From: Cerrena zonata
Taxonomy: Eukaryota; Basidiomycota; Agaricomycetes; Polyporales; Cerrenaceae
Reading direction: 5' to 3'
Length of the DNA stretch: 64,000 nucleotides
NCBI GenBank assembly: GCA_038087015.1
Contig: JASBNA010000004.1
Location: 1,240,001 to 1,304,000 of the forward strand
The number at the start of each line of letters is the position of its first letter. Positions within the stretch are counted from its first letter, which is position 1. A model generated the notes under the pieces. It was not told where the DNA came from. It did no database searches and saw only the letters and a list, made by a program, of their open reading frames with translations. A program made the position numbers and the translations under genes. Of this stretch, positions 1,585-58,110 are shown piece by piece.

Positions 1585-4500
1585 ATGCCTAACCGCTCGG
1601 AATACCAACCGCTTTCTCAAGGAGTTGACGATGAAGAAACTGACGTCGGCGAGGGTCTGCCAGTTCCTGTCACTTCACCAGGAGGACTTCGGAGAATCAA
1701 CAAACCTGGTCATATTGACTTGAGCAAGCTAGATACCGCTTTCAAGAGGCAAGTAATTGCATAGGAGTTGCTTCACTCTTGACTTACCTTACGGTATAGA
1801 TGGACAGAAAGCATCGCTCAGAAAGTGAAACGCAAGAAGAAGGTTGAGGACAACTCTCGAAAGGAGATATGGAAGAGTGTGTTTGACCCTCAAGTGACTG
1901 CTTTCATAACGGAGACTGGACCGGTACGTCCCTTGACATCGAGTATTACCCCTGGTCTGGGTTCTAGAAGCCAACTGACGTATGCCCATTCAATTCAGAT
2001 CAAAACCCTTGACCACAAATCTCCAATGAGCAAGGAAGATTTCGATATGTGAGCCCAGTGATGTTCTTATTAGGTTAACGTCTAATGACAAGCGAAGACT
2101 TGTGAATGCAGTCAAGGATGCCATAGGAGATGGTATTCATCCCAAGATGATCACGAAGGGATCTTCTGGGTCATACTTTGCGCGGGCTAAGGTCGACGGC
2201 CGGATACAAACTGTCGCGTACGTTGTTGCCGCTTGTATAGTTATATAATTACTGACTATAACTTCTAGTGTCTTCAAACCCAAGGACGAAGAACCTTATG
2301 GCAATCTTAATCCAAAGGTAGATCTATTACTGCCATGGGAATAACTACATATTTAATTCTGACCTGTCTAGACCACAAAATGGCTTCACAGACAATTCCG
2401 CTGGATTATTCCATTTGGTCGAGCGTGTCTTATTCCAAATTTAAGGTAGGCTTACTGTACTGTAATACTATACATTCACTAACACCCATATTAGTTATAT
2501 TTCAGAAGCTGCTGCTTCACTACTCGATAGACGTTTGGACTTAAATATCGTGCCTCGGACGGAACTGGTTTCCCTCTCGAGCCCAGTAGGTTTTACAGCT
2601 GTCAAGCCAACAGGGAATCTGTGATCTCATTTCAAATTTACAGGCGTTCTTTTACGATTGGTTAGACAGAAATGCTGCTAAGAAAGGCAAACCTCTACCT
2701 GACAAGATTGGCAGTATGCAATACTTCCTTCATGGTTATACTGGTAAGTTATATCGTTTCTCCAATGTAGGTATATTTATCAAACCACATGTTACCACCA
2801 TTAGACGCATCCGAATTTCTACGGAAACATCCTTGGCCAGGTCGGGCTATTTCCGATACATTCGATGACTCCAGTCACCGGAAGGGCAGTCTCAGCAAGA
2901 AGTTCTTGACCACCATGAAAATCATCTGTGGTAGGACTGGTGATGAAGAAGACTTTTATGACGATGAAGATCGGGAGGACGAACGAGTCTTGTTCGACGC
3001 TACTGAGAGTCAAACCAATACCCCTTTCTATTGGTCACAAGCGTTACAGGATAGTTTCCGCGAAGAACTTGAGAAGTAAGCCCTATTTTTCATCTACGTT
3101 AATATGTTCTAATATAACTATACCAGACTTGTAATTCTTGGTAGGATACATAATGCTTCTATTTCGTAAACTCATTTCATTCATTCTCTTCCAGATTATC
3201 TCATGCTCAACACCGATCGTGGTGCCGACAACTACATGATAAAATACTGCCTTGGCGATCATGGCAAAACTCTCGTCGACGTTGCCCCTTCACGATCTTC
3301 CCGTATCGAAGTACCTATGATGACCGAACTCCGAAGAACCAACTCAACTTCTAGCGCTCCTTCGACCATTCCTAGTATGAACCCATCTTCATCATACTCA
3401 CAACCAGGACCTTCTGCAGCAGGCTCTCAACTGCCCTATAATCGGCAACCGCATATCCATATAGCCGCTATAGACAATTCGCTCTCATTCCCTCATGAAC
3501 ATCCGAAAGGCTGGCGATCGTACACGTACGGTTGGTTGTATCTTCCAGTGACGATCATAGGACGACCTTTCAGCCAGAAAACTAGAGATCATTTCCTGCC
3601 ACTGCTAACATCTAGAACATGGTGGTCGGAAACGACTTTTGAGCTTCGGAAAATGTTTGCTGTCGATCCAGACTTCCACCCTAAGATGTTCAGGGTACGT
3701 AACAGGCAAACGAGAGTACATTAAAGCTGTATTCATTGATGCTATTATTAGCGACAACTCGCAGTCATCAAGGGCAAGCGTGGAACATCGTACAATCTCT
3801 CAAGCATGGTGTAAGTGCTTTCAGTCTTATGCGATCATTTTATTTTAGCTAACAATAATCCTCAGGACGAAGGTTAGCTTATTCATAGCCGCGATTTGAG
3901 TATACTTTCCTGACATTAATTAGGCCCGCTGGAACTTACTCGAAGAACCAAAGTCCTTGTCTGGGATGACGAAGTCGATCTAACAGACGAGAATCTCCCT
4001 ACCATGGTCGATGAACCAACTTCACCCATGGCTGGTCCCAGCTCAGAGCCTATAGCCATTCCTATTCCCTCGCCTCGACCATCTGTCGCGACTGTTCCTT
4101 TACCTCGTGAATCTCGCCGTACACGTAGTCAAGGTGCAAGTGACTTCCCTCCGCCTATGCGAAGAGTGTCAATGGACATGACTGGAGTCTCAAGACCTGT
4201 GTCCTTCTCAGCGAAGTTCTCTAGGGTCCATCCTGCAACAACAGGTGTAACTGTGTTGGAACATATGGAACGTCTAGATGCTGTCGAAGCCGGCCTGAAA
4301 CGGTTAGGCATCGAAGAGGCTGCGATCGAAGACGAGGAAATGGACGTCGGCGAATCATCACAGTCAAATCGCTCGAGACGCGAATCTGATGTCAACGGTC
4401 CACCAACGGCTGATTTAGTACCAGAGCCTTCATCTGCGCCTCTATTGCCTGCTCATTCCTCTCTTTTGACCCCTCCACCCATACTACAACGTCTACCATC

Positions 4501-4806: not shown

Positions 4807-5069
4807 TCATTGCATTGCACTGCTATACCTTACGGGACTGCTTGGATTCGGAATACGGACACTTAGATTGCTTCGTCAATCCTTGCTTTTGACTGGTGTA
4901 CATATACAATTTGTACAGTTTGTACATTATAATCTGACCCTGGATGGAGTTTCCACCTTCGTGAAATGATCGTGATTGAGCAAGTATACCTAAAAGAAGT
5001 AGAAGCAAGAAAGCCAAGCTAGGAATAGAAGGCGAATTCAGGAATAAATAGATATTTAATGCCGAAGGT

Positions 5070-48105: not shown

Positions 48106-48119
48106 AAAACGTCAGAGTA
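48106..48119. repeat. Target-site duplication, left copy
   Basis: AAAACGTCAGAGTA, repeated as CGTCAGAGTA directly after the poly(A) at 58101-58110. The four A bases merge with the tail on the right side, so the duplication is 10-14 bp. Confidence 0.9.
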
Positions 48120-48191
48120 CCCCTAGCACGGTGCTGGCCTTGTCGTGGCCTAGGGGCTGAGTACCTCTTTGGAGGGAAGCTAACGAGCACC
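48120..48191 (+). ncRNA. HDV-like self-cleaving ribozyme at the 5' end of the LINE
   Basis: Helices in HDV order. P1 is CCCCTAG (48120-48126) with CTAGGGG (48150-48156). P2 is GGTGCT (48130-48135) with AGCACC (48186-48191). P3 is GCC (48137-48139) with GGC (48147-48149), loop TTGTCGT. P4 is CCTC (48164-48167) with GAGG (48172-48175). Joining segment J4/2 reads GAAGCTAACG, where the C of GCTAA (48180) is the expected catalytic cytosine. Cleavage is expected just 5' of P1, between 48119 and 48120, exactly the element's border with the target-site duplication. P1.1 is weak (possible U-A and U-G pairs between the L3 start and 48159-48160). No search or fold was run. Confidence 0.68.
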
Positions 48192-48864
48192 AACCGCCTC
48201 TACTGAATACCAGAGTAGAGGATGGCACAAATGTCTTACAGTTTACACCCCTCATCGAATCGTATGAAGTACATCCGATACAAAAACAATCAATCCATCC
48301 CCATACACCTTGTCTAACACCATCTTAAATAGCTAAAATGATACCTTTACAACAGCAGAACAATATAGCCTCATAATGGCCACACAGAATTCTGTAAATT
48401 CCCTCTTAAAAATGAATTCCTTCCTTGTCTGCGAGTTACTCGACTGGCGTCTAAAAACGAACGAGAGCAAGAGCCAAACCAAATAAGGAAACTTCCCCGG
48501 AGGGGGAGGATCCACACCACTAAACTACAAGAGGAAACAAGAGCCCCAAAGCTATGTGCTTGATGCTGACTGACATATAGAAGATCAGATAGGCATCTCC
48601 AGACTGCTCTGAACACCTCGAACCTTTCACTTAACCAAGACGACCCACAAGAAACTGATAATGTGTATCATCTTACCTACAATTCAAACCAAACAGACCT
48701 TATATCTCGCCAATCAATGTGGCCGCCACAAATTATTACCTTCACTGAATAGCAATCAATGGAATGTTCGACATAAGAGAAATCTGACTAACAGCTAGCC
48801 GATCACCGCTACAGCTGCGCAAACCACTAAATAGCTCACACCTAACATAACGCTTAAATAACAG
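48192..48864. other. LINE 5' leader
   Basis: About 670 nt between the ribozyme fold and ORF0. No long ORF or motif was recognised. It presumably holds the internal promoter and the leader of the element. Confidence 0.5.
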
Positions 48865-49597
48865 TTGCCCCCATCACCATCCCCAGAAATGTCTACTGAA
48901 TACTCCCCAACTGTCTCCCCCACTCTCCCTGTCAGGGCGCTGCTAATTCGCCCCAACGTTAACCTGCCTGACACCTGTACCTCTCACATCATCTACGGTC
49001 TCTTCACCAATCCAATCGCCTGGATCACTGCCATTTTCTCCTCCCGACCATTCCCCAAACCTAACGATGGGTGCAAATTCTGTGTAGACCGCGATCTCAT
49101 CTACTACAAAGGAAAAATGATCAGACTTGCAGGAAACTGGGGAAAGGGAAGAATCACCAACATTGACCACTTCCAACGAGACGTTGTGATAGCGAGGGTA
49201 GAAGGAAGAGATATTAGAACACCAGACCACATCGCGTATGTTGCCATCCCATACGACCACATATCCCTCAGCTTTGTCGACGAAATACGCTACCGACTCA
49301 CCAAACATGGTGAGGATGTTTATCGTGGCGACCACATTTGGATCGACCGAGAAAGCCGAGACACCCTGATGGTGTAAAGTAGAACATCTTATCTAATCAA
49401 ACTAATCATCGCCTAACGAGCTTCCACAGAAACCGCCACTCGAGGCCGAAGGCCTAACTCAGCAAAGTACTGTCATCACCTTCCGCTCGTGAGTAAAATA
49501 TCTAACTGACGCGAGACAAGAACACTGATCAAATACCATAACAAGATTTACATCGCACCTATTCACACCGACAACCAGTACTCCAGTCGAGGCATGA
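48865..49597 (+). CDS. LINE ORF0: extra upstream ORF, spliced, no known domain
   Basis: The open frame from ATG 48865 (or 48889) encodes about 170 residues to DTLM. Then an intron 49372-49429 (GTGTAA...CCACAG, CTAAC branch-like) and a second one (GTGAGT...ACAAG, from about 49489) join two short exons ending TPVEA. Conserved-looking core: CKFCVDRDLIYYKGKMIRLA, then GRITNIDHFQRDVVIARVEG and HIAYVAIPYDHISLSFVDEI. It could carry a small SH3- or tudor-like barrel, but I recognise no family. Such an ORF before ORF1 is not usual for LINEs, and the splice sites suggest it was derived from a cellular gene or is expressed by splicing. Confidence 0.55.
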
Positions 49598-50016
49598 CTA
49601 ACAGTCACTTGGCCCCGACGACCGTGGGGTCGGATTCTTACTATCTTCCTTAAACCTCCCCCCATCCCTAGATCGACTTTTCTCATTTGATTAACCATCC
49701 AAATTATGCATTCCCCGCTCCCGTCCCTTACCCGTTCCGTGACCGTAAATATACAATTCTACCAACCTACTCCCTTCTTTGCCGCTTCTTGGCCATCCTA
49801 GACCCTCCTTAGCCACTATGTATCTTACTCATCCTATGTTTTAATTCAATGTTCTACTTGGGACCCCCACGATGAACGGAACTGCAGACGCACAGACAAC
49901 GAACGAACTTAGCATGTGAGGCCGAAACTGCCCCACAGAACTGCCACCAGATGAGGACGGTCAACAGTATAAAAACGAACGAAATACGACAGGAAGGAAA
50001 ACACTCACTCGGGCTA

Positions 50017-52089
50017 ATGCCTAAACACAAACCCAACTCTAAACCAAGATATAAACCTGCTCGTCGAATGTCTTCGCGTTTGAACCCCTCTGCGAAACCA
50101 AGCAAGGCTGTGCCAGCTAGCAAACAACTTGGCGCCCCGCCTGCTCCGGTCACAGAACCTGTGACCAACTCCGACACGACAACAAAAACTGCCGGAACGA
50201 TCGCAGACACTCAAACTGAGACTGACCTTCCCTTCACGAACGACAATGACGACTACACTAGTGCCACTAGGAGACGCAAATACTCTCCTGTCATTATTCA
50301 ATGTCTCCCAGACGACGTTCCTGGTCGCTTTCCAATCCACACCAACTTCTTTGCCCAGCTTGACACTGGAGACACATCCGCCATCGCGGCTCCCACTGAT
50401 GGGCATGAACAAGACACTGTCGTAAGCACTACTTGACTCGCACAACTGATCACCACTAAGCAACACCCTTACTGCAGGTAGTCAATGATGGGGCCGCTGC
50501 GGTCTCTGACAGTAACGCGCTTGGTATCACCTCTACAGCCGTTACAGTCGATGACGACATTGAATTTGACATTCCACCCATCCTCGAGAAAGATGTGGAG
50601 ATGACGAGTGCCCCCTCCCAATCCATCACAGTCCAGATGGACAAGGGAAAAGGAAAGGCTACAGAGATTAGTGAGTTTACAGAACATACCGACCTTGACC
50701 AATAGACTGAAGCAACGACGCTAAGGTTCGGTGACCTTCATCACTCCCTCATCCACTCCCTCGGGTCCAAGTCGCAAACGTCAACGTCGGGAAATATCGC
50801 CTTCCGAATCTGACTACGCACCGGCCCAGGCGATCGCTGGCGAAATCGTCCTGACACGCGAAATCGAGCAAGATATGCCCAACCCTTTCACCTCATCCTC
50901 TAAAGGGTCCCCTCCTATCTCGATGAAGGCGTTCGAGGAGTACATGCTCTCTCAATCTACCCCGAGCGTCGCATCCACCTCACGCTCCCAAGACGGGAAC
51001 GTCACTCTCGAGAATATCACACTCGAGAACATTGGACAAATCCTCGACGCCGCAGATGCCACCAATAGTCAAGTAGCATCCGCCCCGCACGCTCCCCTCG
51101 AGTTCATGAGCACTCCAGATGAGGGATGGCCTCCTATTAACGACGGGAAGCTCGTCCGACTCGCGGAAAACATGAAACTCAGCCAACTAGCTGAATGGTG
51201 CAGAGCACAGGACGATAAGTTTTTCTTGCAGGTTTTTGGGACAACGGCACACAACAAGGACACACCATGGGTTGTAGCCCTTCTCCGCAGCGCACTCCAA
51301 CGTCTGGTGGGACTCAACGACCCGATCATTTCCACACCCAACCCATCTCCGAACTGGAGGGATTACCGCCCCCGCGCTTTCCTCCTCAGTGGCGTCCCGG
51401 CAGAAATTGGACGCCGCCTTCTCGAACAATTCTGCTGGTCAACACACGACATTGCCTTCTTTGTTTATAGATTCTCGTTCAACATCCCTCGCTACATCGG
51501 ACCTTTCATAGGATTCACCACTACCGATGCCGAGCTGATAAAACAAACCTTCCAGGCCCAGTTGAACACGCCCTCGGCGAGGGCTCTCATTGACCAGCTC
51601 CGGTCATCTAACGCCTTGCTCAAGCAAATGCCGCTCGATGCGGTCGTTAACATGCTCTCGCGTTCTGTTGAAACCGACATCCTGATCGTCGCCGAAGATG
51701 GTCGCCCGGCGATTCCTATTGCAAACCTATACATCAGCTCCCCAACCCAGGAGCTAGGCAAATGGCTGCTCTGGCAACAGTTCCTCCAACGCGCTGTATA
51801 TGCCACCCAGTACAACGGCACTGGTACCGGTCGACCACTTTGGAAATGCTCCGGTTGTCATGCTGATGACCACCCCAGAGGCCTCTGCAAATATCCCAAG
51901 CTCACCGGGTGGTTAACCCAACCCTTTCGATTCAACAACGTGAACGACAACACAGCGCAGTCCACGAACGGTGAAACAAACGGGCCACGCCCATCCGGCT
52001 CGCAGAACTACAGACAAAACCAAGGTAACTACAGAGGCTCTGGCAGAGGTGGCTACAGAGGGGGTCGGAACTACGGGCCCACTTACTAA
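50017..52089 (+). CDS. LINE ORF1: nucleic-acid-binding protein with zinc knuckle, two introns
   Basis: Gag-like protein that should bind element RNA. The start ATG 50017 opens MPKHKPNSKPRYKPARR, strongly basic; an in-frame ATG at 49951 is an alternative. Introns at 50422-50477 and 50671-50725 keep frame and join a Ser/Thr-rich N-terminus to VTFITPSSTPSGPSRKRQRR. The middle domain includes EYMLSQSTPSVASTSRS and a helical region from LSQLAEWCRAQDDKFF. A CX2CX4HX4C zinc knuckle (CSGCHADDHPRGLC) is followed by an RGG-rich tail (GSGRGGYRGGRNYG). The introns are unusual for a LINE and mean that genomic RNA is unspliced, while ORF1 protein would come from spliced RNA. Confidence 0.78.
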
Positions 52090-52479
52090 ATCTCACAATC
52101 CTTTCACTTATTTATGTCTTCTTGTCGATAACAGCGGACTTGGCGGGTAAACAGCTGAATGTAAAATACATGTACGACAGCGGACTTGGCGAGATACATG
52201 GCTGTGTAACAATACCTTAACAAATTATTTATGACATATACTTTGTTGATATGCCTTATACGACCCAACATCACTAAAACGGTTACGATGGGAAGGAAAA
52301 GTAAAGAAGAGGGAGCAAAACATACCGCCCAAATTTACTGACTGCCAAGCAGGACAGGAAAGCGGATATGCAAACAGTGAGGAAAGCGGATATGCAAACA
52401 GTGAGGAATACGACCTCACAAAAACGGCGACCTATTTAGGTCCGAACGTGCCATGCCGAGAGGCTGAAGTCCCCTGAAA
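52090..52479. repeat. ORF1-ORF2 spacer with short tandem repeats
   Basis: Two direct 24-nt copies at 52357-52380 and 52381-52404 (start GGAAAGCGGATATGC), plus two copies of ACAGCGGACTTGGCG near 52132 and 52176. The similar GCGGA(C/T) cores suggest one ancestral repeat. Confidence 0.7.
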
Positions 52480-55400
52480 GTGCCCACTCTGTATCACAGT
52501 CTGGACGCAAGTACGACGGACATAGTTCAAGGAAGGAAGCCCCGTTCTGGCCCCCCATCCTGGCAGACCGTTGCTAAGCCAGGTTTGGTAAATGCAACGA
52601 CCAACTCACAAAATTCTAATCGAACCAACAATGGGAACACGTCGGCTACTAGTCAAGGCCTCCACCGACCCGGAGAGGACCACCGTGTACCTGCCCACCA
52701 TGCCTCAAATGAAGGGTCGATGGATAACGGTGACAGGACTCCGAGCCAGCCACATTCTCGGAGAATGCACAGTGGCACAACCGCAGAGCGGGAAACACGG
52801 TCCTGGATCCACGGGACCACTGCCGACGCAGCGCAGGCGCTGCACCAACCGGCTGATACACCAACAGCTGGATTGGCACAAACAGACCCGACAGCGAACC
52901 AGAGACCAAAGAAGCGAATAAACAAAAATACTAAAGCCCACCTCAAAATCGCCTCCCTGAATATGAGGGGAGCAGGCACGAGCGCTCCTATGCACCCCAA
53001 TAACAAATGGAGTGCAATCAACTTCTTGCTGAGAGACAAAAAAATCGGAGTCCTCGCGCTACAAGAAACCCACCTCCCCGACACCTCAGTCACCAATCTC
53101 CATAACCTATACGGTAAACGAATGCAAATATTTCATTCAGCCGACCCAGTGGCCCCAACACAGAGAGCAGGAGTTGCGGTAGTTATTAATAGAGAATTAG
53201 CGAATGTAAAAGGGGCTACAAGCACCGAAATAATACCCGGACGAGCTATGTTAGTCAACATCCCATGGCATAAGTCACAAACGATATCCATTTTAGCTGT
53301 ATACGCACCTAACGACCCTTCCAAGAATAAAGCCTTCTGGCAGGAGATCAGTCAACGATGGGGTGACCTCAGCCTGACCCCGCCAGATATAATTCTAGGT
53401 GACTTTAACCTCGTCGAAGAAGTTATTGACAGACTACCGGCACACTCAGACGACCCAGATGCAGTAGCGGAACTGGCGGGTATGAAAAATTTCTTCCATG
53501 TCACGGACGGTTGGAGGTCCATGTTTCCGGACACTCGAGACTACTCGTTCGTACAAGACGCCACCGGGTCGCACTCACGCATAGATCGAATCTACATCTC
53601 GGACAACATGAGGGCATCCTTTGTAGACTGGGAGATCCAAAACACGAACGTACCAACAGATCACCGGATGGTATCGACGATCCTTGTAAACCGAAAGTCA
53701 CCCTATATCGGGAAAGGAAGATGGGTCCTACCAAAATTCCTACTAGGGGACAAGGAGTTCATGCATGAAGTCTATGAACTGGGACTAGCACTAGAAAAAG
53801 AGCTCGCAGATATAACAATGAGAGGCAGGACGAATGACAGAAACGCACAATCAACTTTTGCAGAATTCAAAGAAAATGTTAAGACGAGCGCCCAGATCCG
53901 CGCGAAGAAAGCAATTCCGAAAATGGAAAAGAAAATAAAAGAACTTAAAACCGAACTCAAACTGCTTACTAACGATGCTAGGATGGCAAATGAGGAGGAA
54001 ATACAGCTCTCTGCAGCCTTAATAAGAAAAAAGATAGAGGAATTAGAGAAGCAAAGATACCATAAAACGAGACTAACGACAATGGCCCGCTACCGGATCG
54101 AAGGTGAAACAGTAAGTAAATACTGGTCGCAAATAAATAAAGAAAAGAAACCACGGGATCTCATCTACGAGTTAAAACGACCTGATACCACTGGACCAAA
54201 TGGAACAAGAGACAGGAACCGAGACTACGAACGTCGCTCAGATAAGATGGCACAGATAATGAAGGACTTCTTCGATGACCTACAAAGAAAACCATACAAC
54301 GCGAGTGAAAACGAACGTCAAACTACCATTGATGAAGTGATTGCTATGATTCCAGAATCAATATCCCAAGGAATAGACATGTCGCCACTAGAAGCTGAAA
54401 TCACGGAAGAAGACATTACCAAAGCTTTAAAAATGACGGAGAATGGCAAAGCCACCGGCCTCGATGGGCTACCTTATGAGTTTTATAAAATACTACATGA
54501 AAACTATAAAACCGACACTCGGGCGGAGAAGAAAACCCCGTTCAATGTTATAAATGTCCTCACGAGCGTATACCAAGATATTGAATCCCACGGAAGTGAT
54601 CATTGGCAGGAAGCCCCCTTCGCACAGGGCTGGATCTGCCCACTCTGGAAGAAAAATGACCCTACCTTACCGGCGAACTATAGACCAATCACCCTGCTAA
54701 ACTCGGATTACAAAATATACACAAAAGCTATGACAACGAAGCTAGCGACCGTTGCACCAAAGCTAATACATGAAAACCAAGCTGGCTTCGTCCCGGGAAG
54801 GAACATATTCGATCACATCCAGCTGTCGAAATTGATGATTGAATATGCGGAAGCAATGGAAGAAAATGGCGCCATAATTGCACTGGACCAAGAAAAAGCA
54901 TACGACCGAATCGCACACGATTACCTATGGCGAGTTCTAGAACGCTTCGGTCTACCCGAACGCTTCATAAATGCTGTAAAAGCGCTTTACAGTCACGCAA
55001 CGTCAATAGTCATCCTTAACGGAGAACGTAGTCATCCTTAACGGAGAACGTAGTCATAGCTTTGAAATAACAAGGGGAGTACGACAGGGAGACCCCCTTT
55101 CTTGTCTTCTGTTTGACCTAGCAATAGAGCCATTAGCGGAAATGATCCGCAAGTCTGAACTGAAAGGATATGACATCCCTGGCATCAGGGACAAAGTCAT
55201 TACCACATTGTTCGCAGATGATACCACAGTGTATCTATCAGAAGGAGACCGGCTCGAAGATTTAGAAAAAATATTAGCAACATGGTGTGTAGCCTCCGGA
55301 GCACAATTCAATCTCAGCAAAACGGAGATAATACCCATCGGAACCACGGAATTCCGAGAAAGAGTAATACAATCGCGAAAACTGAATGACAACCTAGAAG

Positions 55401-57922
55401 ATAGCATACCCCAGAATGTCAAACTAGCAGATGATGGACAGCCAGTCCGATCTTTAGGTGCCTGGATAGGAAACAAGGTTGAACAGGCCACCCCATGGGC
55501 CAAAACTCTAGAAAAAATCAGCAGCGCACTGCACCGTTGGAAGAAGTGCTCTCCCACTCTACGAGGGAAAGTGCTAATAGTACAAATGATAGTGGCAGGG
55601 ATGACTCAATATCTGACAAGAGTCCAGGGCATGCCAAAGGCGATAGAGAAAACGCTACTAAAATTAATGCGGGATTTCATATGGGACGAAGCTAGACCCA
55701 TGGTGAGCATGGAACACTTAAGCGAAGATATAGACAATGGAGGGATAAAACTGCTTGACCTTACATCTCGGAATGAAGCCATTGACTTGATGTGGCTTAA
55801 ATCTTTCCTCGACTTGTCGGATAAGAGACCAGCGTGGGCGTATGTGACCGACATCTTGATCGGAGAAAACATAACGAAGTCCTCCGGGAATGTACACAAA
55901 CTGTCGCAGATCAATATGTTCCTCCAATCATGGAACGTCAACACATCGGGCACTAGTAAACTACCTAAGAACATACAAAAGATGATTAGAGTGGCGAGCA
56001 AATACAAGCTCACCTGCAATGCCATAAAGCTGAATAGTCCCTTGAAAGAACAACTACCAGTTTGGTACCACTTTGGCGCGAATAAAGCACTCAAAAACCT
56101 CAATAACTCCGTGACTGGGAAATGCCTAAGAGATAACCACGGTGTCACGGTGGTAGGAGACTTGATTCGAGTAAAACGGAGACTTAACAGGGCGATTGAA
56201 CCCAGTCATACACAAAACAAAAACTGTAAATGCACGCCCTGCTTCACGGACCGAACAACGAGACTGTGCGGGAATCCCCACGGCTGCGCAAAAGCGGCAG
56301 AAAGAATTATCACAATTCTCCACCCTAAATGGAGAGTAGAAGAAGAACAAGCAAATGACAACCTATCCCTGACAAAGAGACGTCAAGCCGCAAACGACGT
56401 GGCAAGGCAGGAAAATGAAGCAGTCATATTCGACCCATCCGCTACCCTGAAATCCACGATATCCAAAATATTCCGAATATTCTCGGAAACTGGAGTCTCC
56501 ACACAGAACCCGGGACAACGTCCACGACAAGGACTATCAGTGGCGAACGAAACCCTGACGGTCTACATTAGTGGAGGATATAGTAACAAGAAAAGGGACA
56601 TACCCCGAACGGCCGGTTGCGCCTGGTTTGGACAGGACCACCCCTTGAATATAACGAAACAGATTGAAGTGAACTCCAAACCAGCAGCGGACATAGCGGC
56701 CGTGCTGCTTGCGGTGCAGAGAGCCCCAAACTTCGCCCCCTTGCACATTGTCACCACCTCCGCATATGTAACAGAGATCTTCACCAAACACTATGTGAAA
56801 TGGGAGGCAAAAGGATGGACTGATGTGAAAAATCCAACCTTGATAAGAGCAACACTAGCAAGACTAAGACGGCGATCGGCAGTTACCACCTTCAAATGGA
56901 TCAAGAAAGAGGAAGCAGGTCCAGCGAATGAAGAGCCGGCAACACGAGCCAAAAGTGCGCTAGTAGACCAGGATGTGGAGGAGCTGGACGTCTCGATCCC
57001 GGAATCATTCAACCTTACAGGCCTCGAATTAGCCACAGCAAGCCAAGCTCTCATATACAGACGCATCCGCAAGGAAAAGAACCCGGAACTGCGTGCAAGC
57101 ACAGAAAAGAACATGGAGAAAATAAGAGATGAAATAAGGAAAAGAGCAGGGAGGACGCCAGACCGATCGCATGTATGGAAATCCCTACGAGATAAGGCCT
57201 TCAGCCGACCTATTTCAGATTTCCTTTGGAAAACACTGCATGGTGCCTATAAAGTAGGCAAATTCTGGACAAAACTTCCCGGCTATGAAGAAAGGGGAAT
57301 GTGCCCAAAATGCAAAACTACCGAAGACATGGAACACATACTGTTCCAATGTAAAGCCCCTGGCCAACGACTGGTATGGCGACTCGCACAAATCCTGTGG
57401 AGTAGATCAAAAAGGAAATGGCACGGGAGAAACATGGGCCTCCTGCTAGGAAGCGCACTTGTCCCCTTCCAACCTCCACCCCAGACTGTACCGGAGGCCA
57501 ATGACCTACAGGAGGCAGGCCGACAGCCAAGAGGGAAAAAGAAGAAACGACGAACAAATAACAAGTCAACGACGAATGGTGCCCAGCGACTATACATGAT
57601 CTTACTCTCTGAGTCTGCCTACTTCATATGGAAGCTACGCAACGAAAGACGCATCAAACATGGATCCAACCCAGAGTTCGAACACACCGCTATTGAGATT
57701 GAGAACAGGTGGTTTAATATGGTAAACACTCGCCTGACACTAGACAGGGCAATGGCGAACACCGGAAAATTCGGTAAACAAGCAATAGACCCAAACTTAG
57801 TATTGAGAACATGGAGCGGAGTGCTCCATGATGAAGATAGGCTTCCAGATAATTGGATTCGTACTCCTGGGGTTTTAGTGGGTAGGGGGTATCCGGAGAC
57901 GGGCGGTAAAACGCACCGTTGA
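52480..57922 (+). pseudogene. LINE ORF2: AP endonuclease / reverse transcriptase / RNase H-like (frameshifted)
   Basis: Target-primed reverse transcription enzyme. Endonuclease motifs: KIASLNMRG, LALQETHL, ILGDFNL, HSRIDRIYIS and TDHRMVS. RT motifs: GKATGLDGLPYEFYK, NYRPITLLNSDYKIYTK, NQAGFVPGRN, ALDQEKAYDRI, then after the break RQGDPLSCLLFDLA and the catalytic FADD. An RNase H-like region follows (about 56550-56970), then a C-terminal zinc motif, CPKCKTTEDMEHILFQC. A direct 22-nt duplication (55009-55052) shifts the frame inside RT, leaving an 853-codon part and a 926-codon part. No ATG is found at the very start; the frame opens with GTG at 52480 and the first ATG is at about 52720. This copy cannot make full ORF2. 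Confidence 0.92.
55009..55052 (+). repeat. Direct tandem duplication of 22 nt in the reverse transcriptase
   Basis: Two identical 22-nt units starting GTCATCCTTAACGG, at 55009-55030 and 55031-55052. It is not a multiple of three and is the only break in ORF2. Confidence 0.93.
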
Positions 57923-58074
57923 CGAAGGGTACCAGAGTCCCACACTGTTCACTGGAAGGTGATCGTGCGTAACTGCATTTTTCCCCTTTGGTAGATCGCC
58001 CGGCCACGCCGGGGTATAGCTTGACCTTCAGAACTAACCAAGTTAGTTGCTGAACGGTCGTACATAGCTCTTCC
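57923..58074. other. LINE 3' UTR
   Basis: About 150 nt between the ORF2 stop and the poly(A). It carries GATCGCCCGGCCACGCCGGG, whose CCCGGC/GCCGGG halves could form a short 3' stem that ORF2 recognises. Confidence 0.5.
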
Positions 58075-58100
58075 AAAAAAAAAAAAAAAAAAAAAAAAAC
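58075..58100 (+). repeat. LINE poly(A) tail
   Basis: An unbroken run of 26 A, a fresh L1-type tail. Confidence 0.95.
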
Positions 58101-58110
58101 GTCAGAGTAA
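58097..58110. repeat. Target-site duplication, right copy
   Basis: CGTCAGAGTA (58101-58110), with A bases shared with the tail; matches the left copy. Confidence 0.9.

Follow-up and report, generated by a model that had tools for sequence, protein, structure and literature searches.

The first 72 nucleotides of a non-LTR retrotransposon (LINE) of Cerrena zonata very probably form an HDV-type ribozyme, which is predicted to cut at the left border of the element and with which the LINE would likely free its own 5' end from read-through transcripts. The element lies in the window, i.e., the whole stretch of 64,000 nucleotides that was analysed, and positions given below without a prefix refer to this window (Table 1).

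The insertion border at 48120, proposed in an earlier note on this DNA, was upheld by the two copies of AAAACGTCAGAGTA at 48106-48119 and 58096-58109, which enclose the element. Pfam analysis of the LINE detected an endonuclease (EN) domain (E 5.2e-12), a reverse transcriptase (RT; 2.6e-19), and an RNase H (8.9e-8); the RT carries a FADD motif, and the closest solved protein is L1 ORF2p. This domain content, the FADD and CCHC motifs, and the L1 ORF2p match are what bears on the Tad/L1-like label of the earlier note, which is kept here as tentative. Among the protein matches listed (120 of 302), those that carry a species name are fungal, for instance Gymnopilus, Trametes, Lyophyllum, and Mycena, all mushroom formers, which points to a basidiomycete host. 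Two perfect tandem duplications were found within the element, of 24 bp (52356-52403) and 22 bp (55007-55050), and the window copy is likely defective because the latter splits its RT frame. Other copies in the genome have frames of 1591-1776 aa.

Table 1. Features of the LINE and of its predicted 5' ribozyme in the window. Pair counts refer to the related LINE 5' ends described in the text.
Feature	Position	Strand	Remarks
LINE (non-LTR retrotransposon)	48120..58095	+	9,976 bp including poly-A tail; based on duplications, poly-A, and EN, RT, and RNase H domains
Left target-site duplication AAAACGTCAGAGTA	48106..48119	.	exact 14-nt direct repeat with 58096-58109
Right target-site duplication AAAACGTCAGAGTA	58096..58109	.	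directly 3' of poly-A tail
Predicted HDV-type ribozyme	48120..48191	+	predicted cut between 48119 and 48120
P1 5' strand CCCCTAG	48120..48126	+	partner 48150-48156; 5/7 pairs changed on both sides in nine elements
P2 5' strand GGTGCT	48130..48135	+	partner 48186-48191; 5/5 counted pairs changed on both sides in nine elements
Single nucleotide G between P2 and P3	48136..48136	+	a single nucleotide in 9/9 LINE ribozymes (seven G, two A)
P3 GCC/GGC with 7-nt L3 TTGTCGT	48137..48149	+	P3 identical in 9/9
P1.1 5' partner G, paired to C48157	48142..48142	+	G-C in 3/9, U-A in 6/9 LINE ribozymes
P1 3' strand CTAGGGG	48150..48156	+	nine-row helix count
AGTA of J1.1/4, 5' half of proposed loop E	48160..48163	+	AGTA in 9/9
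P4 CCTC-TTTG-GAGG	48164..48175	+	3/5 aligned pairs changed on both sides in six elements
J4/2 GAAGCTAACG, C48180 predicted catalytic C	48176..48185	+	C-N-A-A in 9/9
P2 3' strand AGCACC	48186..48191	+	nine-row helix count
Second hairpin CCTCTACT/AGTAGAGG just 3' of the ribozyme	48197..48221	+	three-row alignment
ORF1 frame, one CCHC knuckle	50725..52086	+	element frame 2606-3967, stop to stop
EN-RT-RNase H region	52480..57922	+	two frames in the window copy

HDV's own ribozymes combine the helices P1, P2, P3, and P4, in this order, with a catalytic C in J4/2. The same order of P1, P2, P3, P4, and J4/2 is read at the 5' end of the LINE as CCCCTAG-CAC-GGTGCT-G-GCC-TTGTCGT-GGC-CTAGGGG-CTGAGTA-CCTC-TTTG-GAGG-GAAGCTAACG-AGCACC. 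The helices announced in the earlier note (7 bp for P1, 6 for P2, 3 for P3, and 4 for P4, in HDV order), as well as a J4/2 containing C48180, were all found in place, and its judgement that P1.1 is weak proved correct, this helix consisting of the single pair G48142-C48157 and a U-U opposition. The window fold resembles HDV's own ribozymes in its P1-P4 order and in the C of J4/2 but differs from them by this one-pair P1.1, by a C at position 1, and by AGUA/GAA around P4. AGTA/GAA beside P4 may correspond to a loop E.

Nine LINE 5' ends, including that of the window, carry this fold, with the double-pseudoknot order P1, P2, P3, P4 nested in the same way in all of them and a single mismatch in P2 of one locus, C5. 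All nine have a C-G pair at the cut site, a single nucleotide separating P2 from P3, AGTA on the 5' side and GAA on the 3' side of P4, and, in J4/2, a C that precedes an A-rich strand (C-N-A-A). The second position of P1.1 is an unpaired pyrimidine-pyrimidine opposition in all nine ends, which counts against the ribozyme reading. The hairpin that follows the ribozyme at 48197-48221 differs in its letters in the C10 copy, where 7/8 pairs persist as judged by eye.

The related elements were found by two kinds of search. A 301-nt query from 48100 gave two other matches in the genome, both beginning at 48119 or 48120, and 13 further loci were reached with the 3' end of the LINE and its EN-RT protein as queries. 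Eight of these retain a 5' end, which carries the fold (C7a, C10, C14, C20, C18, C99, C5, and C7b). Four others lack a 5' end that could be examined: the match to C77 starts only around element position 5016, that to C71 is limited to one 3' part and one internal piece, C30 is truncated at its 5' end and has a target-site duplication of its own, and the C3 LINE locus has only its last 57-66 nt in common with the window element. C159 (28% RT identity) was kept outside the counts of loci with or without the fold. The EN-RT proteins of C7a, C14, C20, and C10 are 59-76% identical to that of the window and those of C18, C7b, C99, and C5 43-45%; element lengths are about 8.3-8.4 kb (C14, C20), 9.9-10.0 kb (window, C7a, C10), and 10.4-11.3 kb (C18, C99, C5). 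The nine fold-bearing LINEs are taken as three subfamilies.

Target-site duplications of 13-16 nt, unrelated to one another, were found in nine elements (window, C7a, C10, C14, C20, C99, C5, C7b, and C30), and they adjoin P1 in all of these except C30, so that the predicted cut is the 5' border of the element in 8/9. The flank and tail of C7b were matched by eye, and in C20, C99, and C7b the duplication and the element share one base, which places the border to within 1 nt. A target-site duplication was also sought at C18, where the fold is present, and was not found. For C14, C20, C99, and C5, the duplications had fixed the border before the fold was recognized there: C14 and C20 had escaped the descriptor scan, and neither C99 nor C5 had been scanned by then. 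The earlier note had considered that related copies might start at other points; this was not borne out, as the full-length copies start at P1 (8/9) and the ninth element, C30, is 5'-truncated.

The C7a copy (C7:142327-152277) contains five in-frame TGA codons in the main matched RT stretch. Compared with the window, it shows C-to-T or G-to-A changes in J1/2, L3, and J4/2, plus some T-to-C changes, and these changes are perhaps due to repeat-induced mutation.

Covariation was assessed in two sets of 5' ends. In a six-row alignment made by MAFFT without structure, 22 pairs were counted, 99.2% of the cells were paired, and ten pairs had changed on both sides, as compared with 39.5-59.1% of paired cells in slid controls. 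In four of five measures, 0/500 shuffles scored as high; the fifth, the number of further pair types, was not above the shuffles (468/500 as high) and counts against the ribozyme. An eight-row MAFFT alignment was set aside: C14 and C20 have a long J1/2 (29 nt, with a hairpin of its own), and their rows were misplaced as a result; these two loci also have a different P2 (ACACC/GGTGT). For the nine rows, pairs were therefore counted helix by helix, with P1, P2, P3, and P1.1 placed individually (16 pairs) and P4 left out; the helix registers were picked to suit the structure, a choice that is likewise to be set against the reading.

In the nine rows, 143 of the 144 cells were paired and 11 of the 16 pairs had changed on both sides, with 0/2000 shuffles as high; these shuffle counts are not probabilities and are inflated because the nine rows, from one genome, share ancestry. 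All P1 cells (63/63) and 44/45 P2 cells were paired, with both sides changed in 5/7 and 5/5 pairs, respectively, while P3 was fully paired (27/27) with a constant sequence, and P1.1 was paired in 9/9, by G-C or U-A. When only five subfamily representatives were retained (window, C14, C99, C5, and C18), 79/80 cells remained paired and all 11 pairs were kept. The covariation among related copies that the earlier note had called for was thus observed for P1 and P2 across nine elements and for P4 across six. The single P2 exception, a C-A mismatch in C5, and an A that replaces the G of L3 in C7a both speak against the ribozyme. The eight positions that vary among the window, C7a, and C10 within the first 72 nt all lie outside P1, P2, and P3; one of them falls in P4, where the change in C7a still permits a U-G pair. 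What is directly observed is that the strands are complementary, that they covary, and that P1 coincides with the insertion border.

Variant HDV ribozymes of fungi are the subject of a study in BMC Genomics from 2017, the authors of which are reportedly Li and Breaker. This work describes 230 representatives in 26 species, marked by a C-G pair at the cut, a P4 partly replaced by loop E, and an extra nucleotide between P2 and P3; for two of them, from Penicillium chrysogenum and Aspergillus niger, in vitro cleavage was shown, at the base of P1 (PMC5640933). The LINE ribozyme, as far as its sequence indicates, is closest to these variants: it has the C-G pair at the cut site and the one-nucleotide insertion that separates P2 from P3, its P4 is flanked by a loop-E-like AGUA/GAA, and its host is likewise a fungus. 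In contrast, the extra nucleotide is described as mostly C in the published variants (PMC5640933), whereas it is G or A in the LINE ribozymes, and the 'widely variable gene associations' reported there (PMC5640933) differ from the LINE 5' borders found here. The string 'retrotranspos' is absent from the main text of that article. HDV-type ribozymes in fungi being already known (PMC5640933), the suggestion in the earlier note that such a fold in a basidiomycete would extend the known range does not hold for the host group; it stands for the placement at a LINE 5' end, the part that was not found in print. Among the literature matches listed (titles and abstract openings, with supplements and most subscription papers outside this scope), none described a fungal LINE with an HDV-type ribozyme.

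Outside fungi, HDV-like ribozymes at the 5' end are described for R2, R4/Dong, L1Tc, and RTE elements, and in Drosophila R2 the HDV-like fold lies at the 5' junction and is cut there (PMC3774820). Like R2, the window LINE is a non-LTR element with such a fold at its 5' junction; unlike R2, which is described as rDNA-specific and as having one ORF (PMC12203849), it has an ORF1 in addition to EN, RT, and RNase H, and the duplications of its relatives are mutually unrelated. In the L1Tc/ingi elements of trypanosomatids, the 77-nt 5' end (Pr77) contains an HDV-like ribozyme (PMC4035085, PMC8256844). The placement at the 5' end of a LINE is common to both systems, but the host lineage is another one, the fold is a variant, and no promoter function is known for the window LINE.

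Beyond the border match and the covariation, the steps of the mechanism that we propose are inferred from R2 and L1Tc. An RNA started at an upstream promoter and reading through from the upstream DNA would fold in the cell into the ribozyme at the LINE border, where C48180, as the putative catalyst, would help the 2'-OH of the nucleotide just before the border to attack. The LINE RNA would be released with a 5'-OH at 48120 and with its ribozyme intact, and reverse transcription to the cut end would copy the ribozyme into each new insertion. P1 would lie at the border of every full-length copy because reverse transcription, as proposed, reaches the cut end.

The weight of this reading depends on how readily the fold arises by chance. 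The HDV descriptor had a single match in the real window, at 48120, and 51 matches in 60 dinucleotide-shuffled windows, with at least one match in 35/60. Such a rate, about 0.85 chance matches per 64 kb with both strands counted, speaks against the ribozyme, and the topology of the fold alone is not significant in 64 kb; the strict descriptor was rejected as proof by itself, since shuffled windows match it too, and other descriptor matches, which lack the conserved core, were judged to be chance. The search of the window with Rfam 15 at the gathering thresholds gave no match, which also weighs against the reading; around the ribozyme site, the only match at E up to 10 was a non-HDV one (RMST_4), and the six related loci gave none at E up to 5. 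The pseudoknot-free minimum free energy (MFE) fold was no better than that of shuffles (z 0.39, 128/200 shuffles at least as good), nested MFE folding being uninformative for a pseudoknotted ribozyme. A mere chance resemblance to HDV, for which the match rate in shuffled windows would speak, can nevertheless be practically dismissed, as both strands have changed in 11 of the 16 pairs across the nine related 5' ends and the fold coincides with the element borders. The ribozyme fold stands above chance because P1 coincides with the insertion border and the nine related 5' ends covary.

Alternatively, the fold could be a conserved but non-cleaving RNA element, such as a ribozyme-derived structure that binds a protein or serves the start of translation, with a promoter at that very base setting the uniform 5' end. 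Cleavage of the LINE 5' fold is a prediction, and the downstream hairpin also occurs in related copies, in agreement with such a role. However, a binding structure needs no HDV pseudoknot, the C-N-A-A of J4/2 is constant (9/9), and P1 starts with the first nucleotide of the element in all eight cases in which the 5' border is fixed; we regard this explanation as improbable. More weight, though still on the unlikely side, is given to an internal promoter near the 5' end that starts most transcripts, with the ribozyme merely trimming them or aiding translation. L1Tc offers a precedent, and the duplications vary between copies so that no common upstream promoter is evident, but a cut at +1 leaves little to trim if transcription starts there. 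Release of the LINE 5' end from read-through RNA by the predicted ribozyme is the reading that we retain.

Folds of this type are not restricted to LINE ends. The genome census was made with sequence patterns, the core pattern being taken from the LINE ends with up to one mismatch. This pattern occurs at 29 places in the genome, nine of which are the LINE ends, and at none in a reversed control; P1 (7/7) and P2 (5/5) are complete at 27 of them, and the two others (LINE C5 and C30:418230) have a P2 of 4/5. In viral contigs, the core pattern had 27 exact matches, with P1 in six, P2 with J4/2 in one, and both in 0/27, the J4/2 spacing used there being one step narrower than in the genome check; these matches were rejected as ribozymes. 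The pairing of 31 non-LINE folds was not used as evidence, as the parser that picked them demands pairing. A second pattern gave 84 places in the genome versus none in the control, two of them at LINE ends (C5 and C20), and 71 of the 84 fall into 21 one-strand clusters of two to five, whose neighbours are 116-345 bp apart, mostly 160-200. Dozens of such folds thus lie in tandem arrays rather than at LINE ends; the fold was confirmed in part of the array stretches, the rest being known from pattern matches.

Six pairs of clusters are in inverted order with members within 10 kb, namely four outward pairs on C3, one outward pair on C5 (1658810 with 1668994), and one inward pair on C5 (1209006 with 1218031). 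Three outward pairs on C3, L067, L068, and L069 (C3:695472-697284, 760821-762817, and 1304070-1306232), have three or four tandem folds per array and arms that are 88-99% identical within a pair; the folds of L067 are 161-176 bp apart, and a ATAAAAGG motif lies between its two arrays. A simple reading of the arrays as TIR transposons was rejected, as none of the three examined (L067, L068, and L069) had a flanking duplication. The inward pair L097/L098 (C5:1209006-1209658 on the plus strand and 1218031-1218623 on the minus strand) is made of four-unit arrays facing each other over 8.4 kb; its halves contain no listed ORF above 173 aa, and those of its units whose sequence was inspected are preceded by TTTTACAG or TTTTCTAG, which resemble 3' splice sites.

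Among other HDV-type folds, L064 and L065 (C7:805395 and C7:816129) have CTGCAGG as P1, directly followed by GTAAGT, which resembles a 5' splice site, and ORF pieces that look like a host gene by eye lie downstream of L064. L061 (C29:197403) has a window-like G-C P1.1 and a 28-nt J1/2 and is followed by a long TTTTTC repeat.

A single ribozyme lineage might serve both the 5' ends of at least three LINE subfamilies and promoter-led tandem arrays, several of them in inverted pairs, that would shed unit-length RNAs as an HDV-type counterpart of retrozymes. We put this forward as speculation that is quite unlikely to hold in full. If it were true, the array units (two to five, mostly 160-200 bp) would yield ribozyme-bounded RNAs with ends fit for circularisation, and the unexplained HDV variants of fungi would mostly be parts of retroelements and their offspring.

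The printed cases of LINE 5' ribozymes that we found concern animal and trypanosomatid elements (PMC3774820, PMC4035085, PMC8256844), and the variant HDV ribozymes of fungi, the cleavage of which was shown in 2017, are presented without a clear role (PMC5640933). With HDV-type ribozymes at their 5' ends, LINEs that lack a promoter can keep these ends intact. The variant-marked folds at the borders of three diverged LINE subfamilies link the fungal ribozymes to LINE 5' ends and thereby give the fungal HDV variants a testable job, and the nine naturally diverged sequences provide material for working out which parts of the variant fold are important.
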